DNA from: Arthrobacter globiformis
GTDB lineage: Bacteria > Actinomycetota > Actinomycetes > Actinomycetales > Micrococcaceae
Reading direction: 5' to 3'
NCBI RefSeq assembly: GCF_003261175.1
Contig: NZ_QLNP01000003.1
Location: 33,697-97,696 of the forward strand
Length of the DNA: 64,000 nucleotides
Below are positions 38,428-48,357 of the stretch, piece by piece. Both the position numbers and the translations under genes were made by a program. Under the pieces are notes generated by a model, which saw nothing but the letters and a program-made list of their open reading frames with translations, ran no database searches and was not told where the DNA came from. How positions within the stretch are numbered: the stretch's first letter is position 1; every line of letters starts with the position of its first letter.

Positions 38428-38584
38428 AGCTCTGCCGCTTCCCGGATTCCGCTAGTTCAGGCAGAGGCGGGGGAACCAGAGTCCCGGGCTTTCCGCATCA
38501 GCCCTTGGGGTGAAGCCGACACGTGAATTTTCCGTGCGGCCGGATGACCTCATCCGAACCCGACAGCTAACTCCGCAGGTGTTG
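38428..38584 (+). ncRNA. ydaO-yuaA cyclic di-AMP riboswitch
   Basis: The leader of the transglycosylase gene shows the conserved ydaO blocks in order: a CTCTGCC/GGCAGAG stem (38430-38466), GGCGGGGGAACCAGAG, CCCTTGGGGTGAAGCCGAC, and TCCGAACCCGACAGCTAAC followed by TCCGCAGG. In actinobacteria this riboswitch sits before peptidoglycan hydrolase genes and turns them off when c-di-AMP is high. The switch ends 15 bases before the start codon, so ribosome-site or terminator control is possible. Boundaries are approximate. Confidence 0.9.
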
Positions 38585-38598
38585 AGAGGCAATCAACC

Positions 38599-39483
38599 AT
38601 GTCTGAATTCAAGGCACAGGCGCGCCCTGACCGCGCCTCCCAGCAGTCTGACCCCAAGATTTCCCGTCACCGGGCAGAGCCGGCCAAGCCCGCATCCGCG
38701 TGGTCCGGGCTCACCGCACGCATCCCGTCGCTCGGCCGCCGCGCAGCCGTCGTGGCCACCGCCTGCACGGTTCTCGTCGGCGTCGGCGCAGCGGGACAGG
38801 CGGCCGACCAGGCTACGCCTTCCGCCGCCGAGCCGGCCGCGGCCACCGCTGACGCCGGGCAGACGCTGAGCTTCGACAAGACGCTGATCTCCGCGCTTCC
38901 CGCCCCGTCCTCGGCCTCCATCGCGCCGCAGTCCTCGTCCCAGGCTGCCGCCGCAAAGGCCGCCACCGTGAAGGCTGCCGCCGCCAACGCAGCCGCTGCT
39001 AAGACTGCCGCCGCTGAGACTGCCGCCGCCAACGCAGCCGCTGCTAAGACTGCCGCCGCTGCCAACGCCGCTGCGGTTGCCAAAGCCAACGCCGCCCAGG
39101 CCGCCGCTGCCAAGGCTGCCGCCGCGAAGGCTGCCGCCGCTGCCAAGGCCAAGACCGCCGCGCCGGTCGCCCTGAACGATCCGGCCGGCGCGCAGGCCTA
39201 CGCGGCCAGCAAGCTGGGGTCCTTCGGCTGGTCGGCAGACCAGATGCAGTGCCTGAAGCGGCTCTGGACCAAGGAATCGGAATGGCGCACGACGGCCACC
39301 AACGCGAGCAGTGGCGCCTACGGCATCGTCCAGTCACTGCCTGCCGAGAAGATGGCGACCGCGGGGGCGGACTACCGCACCAACTACCGCACCCAGATCA
39401 ACTGGGGCTTGGACTACATCAAGGAGCGCTACGACTCCCCGTGCGGTGCCCTGAACTGGCACCTCGCCCACAACTGGTACTAA
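38599..39483 (+). CDS. Secreted lytic transglycosylase-like protein, riboswitch-controlled
   Basis: A 294-residue exported protein. A long basic N-terminus precedes a hydrophobic signal/anchor helix (RAAVVATACTVLVGVGAAGQ). An Ala/Lys-rich low-complexity linker follows (about residues 110-190). The C-terminal SLT-like or aggregation-promoting-factor domain reads MQCLKRLWTKESEWRTTATN with the catalytic-type Glu, then ASSGAYGIVQSLPAEKM and the terminal ALNWHLAHNWY. It should cut or remodel peptidoglycan outside the membrane. Expression is governed by the c-di-AMP riboswitch immediately upstream. The linker contains a DNA-level repeat that could vary in copy number. Confidence 0.9.
   Translation: MSEFKAQARPDRASQQSDPKISRHRAEPAKPASAWSGLTARIPSLGRRAAVVATACTVLVGVGAAGQAADQATPSAAEPAAATADAGQTLSFDKTLISALPAPSSASIAPQSSSQAAAAKAATVKAAAANAAAAKTAAAETAAANAAAAKTAAAANAAAVAKANAAQAAAAKAAAAKAAAAAKAKTAAPVALNDPAGAQAYAASKLGSFGWSADQMQCLKRLWTKESEWRTTATNASSGAYGIVQSLPAEKMATAGADYRTNYRTQINWGLDYIKERYDSPCGALNWHLAHNWY
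38975..39061 (+). repeat. 45-bp tandem repeat in the transglycosylase linker
   Basis: The 42 bases at 38975-39016 recur exactly at 39020-39061 (period 45 bases, 15 codons), encoding the Ala-rich repeat containing NAAAAKTAAAE. Being in frame, copy changes would lengthen or shorten the linker without breaking the protein. Confidence 0.8.
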
Positions 39484-45734: not shown

Positions 45735-46895
45735 TCATTCTCCATCAGCAGGCGGTTGCGAGGAATGGCCGCCCGGCGACGCTTTCGGCGCCACGTAGCC
45801 GAGCACCTGCCGGGCAGTGGCATCCCAGCCGGGCAGGAGTTCCCTCCCGGCGAGGGCGCGTCGGCGCCATTCGGCGCGCAGCCCGGGGTCCGTGAGCCAG
45901 CTGCGCAGCAGGGCCGCCAGCGGCTCCGGGTCCGCTTCCCCGTCGGCAGGTTCGCTGCTTCGCTCGTCAGGTTCGCCGCCGAGTTCGACGACGGCGCCGG
46001 GCAGGGCGGGTCCAGCACCATTCGGACGTCCTGGGGCAGTTTCCGCACCCAGCCCGAGCGCCTCCACCGCGCCGGTGCCCGCCCGGACGATGACCGGCAC
46101 CCCGCGGGCCACGGACTCGGTGACCGCCATGCCGAATGCCTCCACCTTGGAGACCAGCAGGCTCAGGTCGGCGGCGTCCCACTGCTCCTCCAATGCCCCG
46201 CCGGTTAGTTCGCCGGGCAGCTGCACCCGGCTGCCCAGGCCGTAGTGGTCTACTGCAGCCGCGACCTGGCGGGCGTAGCCGGGGTCCGCGGTGGCCGATC
46301 CGACGAGCGCCGCCGTCCACTCCAGATCCTGCAGCCGGGCCAGCGCGCCGAGGAGAACCAGCTGGTCCTTGTTGGGCAGGAGTGCTGCCACGGCCAGCAG
46401 TCGCGGCGGCTCGGATCCGTCCGCCACCGGGCCGCGCTCGGTTCCGGGCAGCGCCGCGCGGACGCCGGCTAGGCCGTGCCGCCGGCTGATTTCGGCGGCG
46501 GCGGAGCCGCTGGTGCAGATCACGCCGGCGGCCGCCCGCAGCGCCCGGGCTTCCAGGTCCGCATGTTCGTCCAGGGGCATGTGCAACAGGACCCACGGCG
46601 CGTGGCCGGCCTCGGCGGCTTCCTCCATCGCTTCGGGGGCGCCAGAGGCGACCAGACCGTCAACGATCGTGACGGTGTTGGTTCCTGCGGTGGTCCCCGT
46701 CGTGAGCAAGCCGGCCAGCCGCCGTCGTTCTTCCTTGCTGCCAACCGGCCAGTTGCCGACGACCGGCTGGATGGTTACCGCTGTTCCCAGTTGCTCGAGG
46801 CCCTGCGCCAGCGCTGCGTTGTAGACGTTGCCGCCGGAGTTGTGCCGGATGTTTGCGGGTACCAGGAGCCGGATGGCAGGCGGCGGGGGCAGCAT
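45735..46895 (-). CDS. GT4-type glycosyltransferase in PTPS operon
   Basis: A 386-residue GT-B glycosyltransferase. The N-domain starts IRLLVPANIRHNSGGNVYNA with the Gly-rich donor/acceptor loop, and the C-domain has the GT4 pattern LLAVAALLPNKDQLVLLGAL, VQLPGELTGGALEEQWDAAD and SKVEAFGMAVTESVARGVPV (E-x7-E). No membrane helix. ATG 46895 is seven bases after the PTPS-like stop. Donor and acceptor are unknown. Conserved linkage suggests it glycosylates a small molecule made by the two upstream gene products. Confidence 0.86.
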   Translation of the reverse strand: MLPPPPAIRLLVPANIRHNSGGNVYNAALAQGLEQLGTAVTIQPVVGNWPVGSKEERRRLAGLLTTGTTAGTNTVTIVDGLVASGAPEAMEEAAEAGHAPWVLLHMPLDEHADLEARALRAAAGVICTSGSAAAEISRRHGLAGVRAALPGTERGPVADGSEPPRLLAVAALLPNKDQLVLLGALARLQDLEWTAALVGSATADPGYARQVAAAVDHYGLGSRVQLPGELTGGALEEQWDAADLSLLVSKVEAFGMAVTESVARGVPVIVRAGTGAVEALGLGAETAPGRPNGAGPALPGAVVELGGEPDERSSEPADGEADPEPLAALLRSWLTDPGLRAEWRRRALAGRELLPGWDATARQVLGYVAPKASPGGHSSQPPADGE

Positions 46896-46902
46896 GGCCG
46901 GG

Positions 46903-47301
46903 TCAGCTGCGGTCGAATTCAAGGGCATAGCTCGCCCAGGCATCGGGGTTTTCCCGGAGGGTGACGTCCAGGCCGGCGAGCTCACGTCCGTCCTTATCCT
47001 CCCGCAAGCGCTTTGCGACGGCGTCGGCAATGTACTGCGCCAAGGCCTCCGTGGTGCTTAGTTTGCCGGCGAAGTCCGGGTGCTCGTCCAGGTTCCGGTA
47101 GTTGAGCCCGGCCAGCACCTCCTCAATCATGTTGCCGGCTGCGCCGATGTCCAGGACGATGGCGTCGTCGTTGAGGGCACGACGGCGGAACGTCACTTCC
47201 GCGACGAAGGTCGCCCCGTGCAGGCCCTGGGCGGGCCCGAAGGCCTCGCGGGGAAGGCTATGGGCAATCATGAAGTGGCGGCGTACGGTCAGGCTGAACA
47301 C
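46903..47301 (-). CDS. PTPS/QueD-fold protein lacking canonical catalytic residues
   Basis: A 132-residue T-fold protein alignable end to end with QueD/6-pyruvoyltetrahydropterin synthase. First zinc His (His14 in FMIAHSL) and second (His28 in GLHGATF) remain, but the third is Ala30, the catalytic Cys is Ala24, and the Asp-His dyad is Asn67-Tyr68 (GLNYRNLDEHPDF). The purine-anchoring Glu near the C-terminus (LRENPDAW) is kept, so pterin or GTP-like binding may persist. GTG start with GAGGTAA ahead, four bases after the dehydrogenase stop. Annotation pipelines will probably call it 6-carboxytetrahydropterin synthase; that activity is doubtful. Confidence 0.8.
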   Translation of the reverse strand: MFSLTVRRHFMIAHSLPREAFGPAQGLHGATFVAEVTFRRRALNDDAIVLDIGAAGNMIEEVLAGLNYRNLDEHPDFAGKLSTTEALAQYIADAVAKRLREDKDGRELAGLDVTLRENPDAWASYALEFDRS

Positions 47302-47304
47302 TGG

Positions 47305-48357
47305 TTACCTCGCGGTTTCGGTGGGTTCGGTTTCATGGACGGGGTATTCGGGGCCGGAGGCTTCCGTGGGCGGGTATTCAATGACGTGGCACAGCGCTTC
47401 GAGCCGGCCCTCGGCCAGGTCCTGGACCACGCCGGGCAGCCCGGCGAAGTCCGAGGCGCCGGTAAGGAAGGCGTCGAACACCGGGTCCTCCAGCAGGGAC
47501 ACAGCGAGCTCCAGCCTGTCGGCGTTGGTCCGGCGGTGCCGGCGGGCCCGCGCCACGGCGCCCACCTGACTGGCCCGGATGGACAGCCTGCGCGCGTGGA
47601 AGTCCTCACCGAGCGGGAGCGTGATTTTCCGGTCGGCGTACCAGGACATCTCGATGATGTCGCCCTCATCGCCCACCAGCTTCAGGCTGCGTTCCAGCCC
47701 GCCTTCGGACGCGGAGCAGTGGAACACGATGTCGCAGTCCGGCAGGGCATCATCCGGGAGGGCGAAATCAACGCCGACGGCGTCGGCGAGGTCCTTGCGG
47801 GCTGGATCGAGGTCCACGAGTTGGAGCCGTGCGAGGGGAAACGTGCGCAGCAGCGTGGCCACCATGCCGCCCACCAGCCCGGCGCCGATCACGGCGACGC
47901 GGTCGCCCAGCCTTGGCCCCGCCTCCCAAAGGGCGTTCACGGCCGTTTCCACGGTGCCGGTGAGGACCGCGCGGCGGGGAGGAACGGCGTCGGGAACGCG
48001 GGTCAGCGAGGACACCGGGACCACGTAGAGGTCCTGGTGCGGGTGGAGACAGAACACGGTTTGCCCCACCCAGTCCGCCGGGCCCTGCTCCACCACCCCC
48101 ACGGACAGGTAGCCGAACTTCACCGGCGATGGGAAGGAGCCCTCCTGGTGCGGGGCGCGCATTTCCTCGGCGACGCAGGGCGGAACGGCGGCCTGGTGGA
48201 CTACAAGTTCGGTGCCCTTGCTGATGCCGGAGTACAGCGAGCGCACCAGCGCCTCCTCCGGGCCGGGAACGGGCAACTCCTCGGCGCGGAGTTCACCCTG
48301 GCCGGGGCCCACGGTCCAATATGCGGTTGCTTCGGTCTGCTGCTGGAAAGTAGTCAT
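47305..48357 (-). CDS. BchC-like medium-chain dehydrogenase
   Basis: A 350-residue MDR-family protein. The N-domain SLYSGISKGTELVVHQAAVP resembles BchC and its actinobacterial relatives, with no full structural zinc lobe seen. The Rossmann domain has LGDRVAVIGAGLVGGMVATL and an acidic strand end (LQLVDLDPARK), favouring NAD. Leads an operon of four tightly spaced genes (dehydrogenase, PTPS-like, GT4, AlkZ-like). The reaction is probably oxidation of an alcohol on an unidentified, possibly pterin-derived or glycosylated, compound. The ribosome binding site is weak. Confidence 0.85.
   Translation of the reverse strand: MTTFQQQTEATAYWTVGPGQGELRAEELPVPGPEEALVRSLYSGISKGTELVVHQAAVPPCVAEEMRAPHQEGSFPSPVKFGYLSVGVVEQGPADWVGQTVFCLHPHQDLYVVPVSSLTRVPDAVPPRRAVLTGTVETAVNALWEAGPRLGDRVAVIGAGLVGGMVATLLRTFPLARLQLVDLDPARKDLADAVGVDFALPDDALPDCDIVFHCSASEGGLERSLKLVGDEGDIIEMSWYADRKITLPLGEDFHARRLSIRASQVGAVARARRHRRTNADRLELAVSLLEDPVFDAFLTGASDFAGLPGVVQDLAEGRLEALCHVIEYPPTEASGPEYPVHETEPTETAR

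Follow-up and report, generated by a model that had tools for sequence, protein, structure and literature searches.

A PTPS-IV protein with altered catalytic residues in a conserved actinobacterial gene cassette that may make a glycosylated compound from GTP

Introduction

The closest described relatives of the protein at the centre of this study are found in the Pfam PTPS family. QueD (PTPS-I) and the BH4-type enzymes (PTPS-II) share with it this family assignment, two zinc histidines and a C-terminal Glu, but the protein lacks their Cys, their Asp-His dyad and one zinc His. A nearer match is PTPS-IV (COG0720/IPR007115), for which FGPAQ is given as the signature in PMC5445326. The same paper places PF00925 and PF01872 in the PTPS-IV gene neighbourhood and terms PF00925 FolE2; its Pfam name is GTP cyclohydrolase II (GCH II). 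A role for PTPS-IV in cofactor F420 is stated as unpublished in PMC5041015, and apart from that statement no function for the cassette and no reaction for PTPS-IV was found in CC-licensed literature. A structure exists for a relative from Streptomyces coelicolor, SCO6650 (PDB 3d7j), which the PDB labels 'uncharacterized'.

Here we analyse a cassette located in a 64-kb stretch of Arthrobacter globiformis DNA, called the window throughout. The first-pass annotation had presented this cassette as a candidate undescribed pathway. 'Undescribed' goes too far, since the PTPS-IV signature and the gene neighbours of PTPS-IV have been published and the SCO6650 structure has been deposited in the PDB.

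Genetic organization of the cassette

The cassette and its downstream neighbour are arranged as follows.

47305-48357, minus strand: dehydrogenase (DH) gene, 350 amino acids, first gene of the cassette
46903-47301, minus strand: PTPS-fold gene, 132 amino acids, GTG start
45735-46895, minus strand: GT4 glycosyltransferase gene, 386 amino acids
44508-45731, minus strand: AlkZ-like gene (PF06224), 407 amino acids, 3 bases downstream of the GT4 gene

All four genes lie on the same strand with successive gaps of 3, 7 and 3 bases, and the coordinates thus bear out the earlier remark that the DH, PTPS-fold and GT4 genes are tightly coupled (gaps of 3 and 7 bases). The Pfam scores for PTPS (89.2 bits), Glycos_transf_1 (61.2) and AlkZ-like (107) all exceed their cut-offs. 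A tRNA-Ser(cga) is located upstream on the opposite strand, and Rfam returns nothing else at the cassette. Riboswitch control was considered and set aside, as Rfam searches of the corresponding loci in seven relatives gave only tRNAs. Elsewhere in the window (38440-38595, plus strand) there is a c-di-AMP riboswitch (RF00379, 61.1 bits). Located 3' of this riboswitch, at 38752-39483, is a reading frame whose 243-residue product is rich in Ala, looks secreted and matches nothing in Pfam at E<=0.001.

Distribution and conserved gene order

A PTPS match at E<=0.001 is present in 78 of 296 genomes in a phylum-wide sample. Within 1.5 kb of 29 such loci from other genomes, a DH gene is found at 25 and a GT gene at 24. 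The locus L024, which lies at a contig edge, has no DH gene, and three extended loci that carry neither DH nor GT (L134-L136) retain the PTPS catalytic residues. In the window's family, matches at E<=1e-20 occur in 96 of 295 genomes, spread over 15 of 32 genera, and include all 24 sampled genomes of the window's own genus. Two Micrococcaceae PTPS matches (G316:C1:151960-152340 and G340:C22:9572-9952) contain an in-frame TGA, which suggests that the cassette is decaying there, unless the TGA reflects a sequencing error.

A search within Actinomycetota yielded at least 571 confirmed stretches, and the best 80 of these, 40 of them Arthrobacter-like, are the named loci used below. By tblastn, DH is found at 80 and GT at 75 of these best 80. 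Genes in relatives were called with our own codon-usage caller, and start positions may be off. Most DH-PTPS gaps (92 loci) are shorter than 15 bases, but the distribution extends to 228 and includes a single gap of 1138; PTPS-GT gaps (83 loci) range from -34 to 59. The pathway proposal depended on the three genes staying together outside a single genus. This they do: the DH-PTPS-GT order recurs in many genera across the phylum and constitutes a conserved actinobacterial unit. All three genes are under purifying selection, with median dN/dS values among the Arthrobacter-like loci L032-L066 of 0.19 for PTPS (35 sequences), 0.20 for DH (35) and 0.33 for GT (27).

The AlkZ-like gene is different. 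It is present at 18 of the 80 named loci by clustering and at 19 by tblastn (best 80 of at least 571 stretches), and the 18 found by clustering are all among the 40 Arthrobacter-like loci. The first-pass annotation had joined this gene to the operon, which is correct as to its position 3 bases downstream but not as to membership of the unit. We rejected a pathway role on the basis of this restricted occurrence, and the gene is probably a lineage-specific neighbour. The window's copy of the cassette consists of the three core genes only.

The PTPS-fold protein

The window's PTPS-fold protein, which is the sole PF01242 match in its genome, carries FGPAQ at residues 21-25, as do 78 of the 81 cassette PTPS proteins outside one divergent family of loci (f18, perhaps Rubrobacteraceae, which is our guess). 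By this signature the protein belongs to the already named subfamily. PF00925 and PF01872 neighbours accompany the cassette in relatives; they do not occur in the window, but the genome carries both on other contigs. Its closest named relative among the matches listed is from Arthrobacter globiformis NBRC 12137 (95% identical). SCO6650 is likewise similar (phmmer E 1.5e-37 over 126 residues) and has the HGAT and YRNLD motifs in common with it. To our knowledge, SCO6650 has no known function.

The residues that had been read from the sequence as Ala24, Ala30, Asn67-Tyr68 and Glu117 are all as claimed, and in an alignment with solved QueD and PTPS chains the altered ones coincide with the HGH motif and with the site of the Asp-His dyad. 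Where QueD has CxxxHGH and the Asp-His dyad, the window's protein has A24, HGA and N67-Y68. In place of the PTPS-II motif CxxxxxHGH there is FGPAQGLHGAT, and relative to the PTPS-III motif ExxHGH there is Gln25 at the Glu position and HGA instead of HGH. The scores for the QueD model TIGR03367 (37.8 bits; cut-off 89.25) and for TIGR00039 (35.2 bits; cut-off 125.5) are far below threshold.

These substitutions extend to the whole cassette group. Among 97 cassette PTPS proteins (window included; that of L077 is absent, having been missed by the gene caller), Cys24 is replaced by Ala and His68 by Tyr or Phe in every one, and Asp67 is replaced in 94, with three retaining it. Cys24 and His68 are present in 3/3 non-cassette relatives, and Cys24, Asp67 and His68 in all 33 reference PTPS rows (two row pairs being the same gene). 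A tree of 73 rows, comprising 40 of the 97 cassette proteins and these 33 references, separates all 40 cassette rows from the references by a branch supported at 100/98, although it is built from few columns and long branches meet between the two groups. The altered PTPS of the cassette thus has a single origin. Given the uniform A24 and Y/F68 in a clade apart from intact PTPS proteins, the substitutions are not due to chance.

The loss of a zinc His does not extend to the whole group. It is real in the window (Ala30) and in all 81 proteins outside f18, but 16 of 16 f18 members have His30 and therefore a full HGH. Proteins of this family (L118-L133) keep all three zinc histidines while the Cys and the Asp-His dyad are gone, and their counterpart of the signature has T, S, A, M or V after FGPA. 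Because f18 retains His30 without the Cys or Asp-His, the triad and the zinc ligand were lost separately. From these residues, f18 looks like an intermediate stage in the PTPS-IV lineage.

A match to PF01242 above its cut-off might be taken to indicate an ordinary QueD/PTPS enzyme that tolerates substitutions. We regard this as scarcely tenable in view of the two subthreshold models, the separate clade and the motif. Queuosine and BH4 roles were rejected by motif, model scores and tree, and the earlier judgement that conventional 6-carboxytetrahydropterin chemistry is unlikely here is supported.

The absence of the triad from all 97 members, save for the three with Asp67, could alternatively mean that PTPS-IV has ceased to be an enzyme and instead, as a binding or scaffold protein, offers a pterin or pyrimidine to DH and GT. 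We consider this doubtful, since His14, His28, Glu85 and Glu117 are invariant in 97/97 proteins and f18 has the full HGH, a pattern that resembles a working site.

Participation in F420 synthesis fits poorly and is very improbable. Besides the unpublished statement in PMC5041015, it can draw on CofD matches that exceed the cut-off in 10 of 22 genomes with the cassette, including the window's own. However, such matches are also present in 13 of 18 genomes that lack the cassette, are missing from 11 of 12 cassette-bearing Micrococcaceae tested, and in the cassette genome G195 are found only as pieces. Micrococcaceae without the cassette likewise have no CofD match over the cut-off (5/5).

The dehydrogenase and the glycosyltransferase

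The DH is a medium-chain dehydrogenase with intact cofactor glycines, and the motif positions where zinc ligands usually stand are occupied by other residues (Ser46, Tyr83 and Leu84). There is no Pfam match at E<=0.001. The bacteriochlorophyllide dehydrogenase BchC (TIGR01202) is its best NCBIfam match, yet at 39.9 bits it is far below the cut-off of 291.25, and the protein cannot be called a BchC. Its fold is nearest to polyol-type dehydrogenases, with matches that single out no one relative.

Assignment of the third protein to GT4 is well founded, with a PF00534 match of 61.2 bits against a cut-off of 26.4. The EX7E motif (E252, E260), K176 and GG21-22 are intact. Filtering by length and distance left 27 DH and 26 GT sequences of 31 chosen loci in the alignments. 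Among GT sequences compared, E252 is conserved in 27/27 and E260 in 26/27. The fold is closest to MshA/BshA-type enzymes, at 16-18% identity and with many GT4 enzymes scoring alike. The BH4 glucosyltransferase 9v0l is lower in the list, at 14% identity. A sequence search of the PDB gave no match at E<=1e-6.

Additional genes in relatives

Many relatives have a longer operon. Among the 40 loci L072-L111 (part of the best 80 of at least 571 stretches), a methyltransferase-like gene and a PF03706 membrane protein are each found at 34, and a GCH II domain at 33, in five cases fused to RibD_C. A CDP-alcohol phosphatidyltransferase occurs at 26, mostly on the other strand. In f18, RibD_C directly precedes DH at 16 of 16 loci, a different methyltransferase-like family occurs at 10 of 16, and a FolB-like gene (identified by reading) is divergently oriented beside the cassette at 15 of 16. 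At L137 the DH, PTPS, GT, methyltransferase, PF03706, GCH II and RibD_C genes all stand in one row. The Arthrobacter-like loci L032-L068 and L070-L071, also from the best 80 of at least 571, have no GCH II or RibD_C near the cassette.

This last observation would be expected if GCH II and RibD_C were riboflavin genes that strayed into the neighbourhood, with a cassette product unrelated to GTP. Such a coincidence is quite improbable when GCH II is present at 33 of the 40 loci L072-L111 (among the best 80 of at least 571) and RibD_C sits by DH at all 16 f18 loci, in two different arrangements.

The GCH II proteins are of two kinds. Across L069-L111 and L137, those with Tyr at the KAYALQ position are accompanied by RibD_C at 12 of 12 loci (6 as fusions), and those with Met, His, Gln or Leu at 1 of 23 (L096). 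L125, which was left out, is of the Tyr type with RibD_C and fits the trend. The association gives a Fisher p of 1.6e-8, although ancestry is ignored and independence is overstated because the loci are related. SCO6655 is a Met-type GCH II that releases FAPy.

A creatininase-family gene lies on the opposite strand near the cassette at 7 of 44 loci (L081, L086, L094, L100, L104, L105 and L110), in no case together with RibD_C. GCH II is of a non-Tyr type at six of these, and at the seventh there is none within reach; the association with the non-Tyr type is not significant (p 0.07). The one member scanned, from L110, is no match for ArfB (NF033501, 37.3 bits compared with 180 needed), and its nearest model is MftE at 136.4 with a cut-off of 172.

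Sources of a precursor in the window's genome

There is no GCH II or RibD_C in the 64-kb window. Three GCH II and 14 RibD_C domains score over the cut-off in the genome, all on other contigs, and searches for PF03706, for creatininase and for a close methyltransferase homologue, one of which had no positive control, found none of them in it. The cluster in this genome comprises the three core genes and no others, so a precursor must come from genes elsewhere. On contig C37 there is a 610-residue fusion of GCH II to an acyl-CoA-dehydrogenase-like domain (L117:8369-10201), and two RibD_C-family genes immediately precede it. Matches to it at E<=1e-60 occur in 20 of 295 family genomes, 19 of which have the cassette. 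The fusion was rejected as the missing first enzyme because no more than 19 of the family's 96 cassette genomes carry one.

The lack of a dedicated GCH II in the window's version is one reason to consider as the acceptor a pterin that GTP cyclohydrolase I provides for the folate pathway (dihydroneopterin or one of its phosphates), modified by PTPS-IV and glycosylated by GT in the manner of cyanobacterial pterin glycosides, with GCH II and RibD_C forming a side branch. Each of the 20 cassette genomes tested encodes GTP cyclohydrolase I, the FolB-like gene stands beside the cassette at 15 of 16 f18 loci, and pteridine glycosyltransferases are known in other systems (PMC5683033). This possibility leaves unexplained the GCH II and RibD_C genes at most non-Arthrobacter loci, and we rate it as rather unlikely, if somewhat less so than a scaffold role.

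Proposed pathway

We put at about even the chance that the cassette, built around PTPS-IV, starts from ring-opened GTP and produces a glycosylated pteridine or ribityl-pyrimidine. In some lineages Tyr-type GCH II and a reductase would supply ribityl-diaminopyrimidine, while others would use GCH II of the Met, His, Gln or Leu type, which, to judge from SCO6655, may form FAPy. DH may oxidize a side-chain alcohol. The T-fold protein might hold the aminopyrimidine edge via its invariant Glu and guide the ring to close or rearrange, dispensing with the Zn/Cys/Asp-His chemistry that QueD uses, and the GT4 enzyme would add a sugar to a small acceptor. The suggestion of a glycosylated, possibly pterin-like product survives as the most economical one, given that GCH II, RibD_C and methyltransferase-like genes accompany the cassette in relatives. 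Gene content, conservation and substitutions are observed, whereas substrate, sequence of steps and product are what we infer from them. Consistent with a GTP-derived product are the cassette order, the single clade, the invariant Glu117, purifying selection, the neighbouring genes and the GT4 and DH folds. Arguing against it are the off-window location of precursor genes, the rarity of the L117 type, the exception at L096 and fold matches that single out no relative.

A more specific scheme, which we consider unlikely, is that the cassette completes a pterin ring independently of GTP cyclohydrolase I. In it, GCH II would open GTP, RibD_C would reduce the ribosylamine to a ribitylamine, and DH would re-oxidize C2' to give a 1-deoxy-2-ketose, as in the Amadori step of the cyclohydrolase I reaction. 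The zinc-free T-fold protein could then close the ring, and GT4, joined in many lineages by a methyltransferase, would yield a pteridine glycoside. Folate synthesis that bypasses GTP cyclohydrolase I is disfavoured by the presence of FolE in every one of the 20 cassette genomes tested, and this route would thus serve a separate product.

Significance

What is added here to the published picture is a GTP-to-pyrimidine module in many relatives, the separate losses of triad and zinc ligand, a dehydrogenase without zinc-ligand residues at the positions where they usually stand, and the poor fit to F420. The survey argues against the sole role in print for PTPS-IV. It also gives the subfamily fixed partners and a glycosylation step, points to GTP as the source of a candidate precursor and distinguishes two kinds of GCH II.
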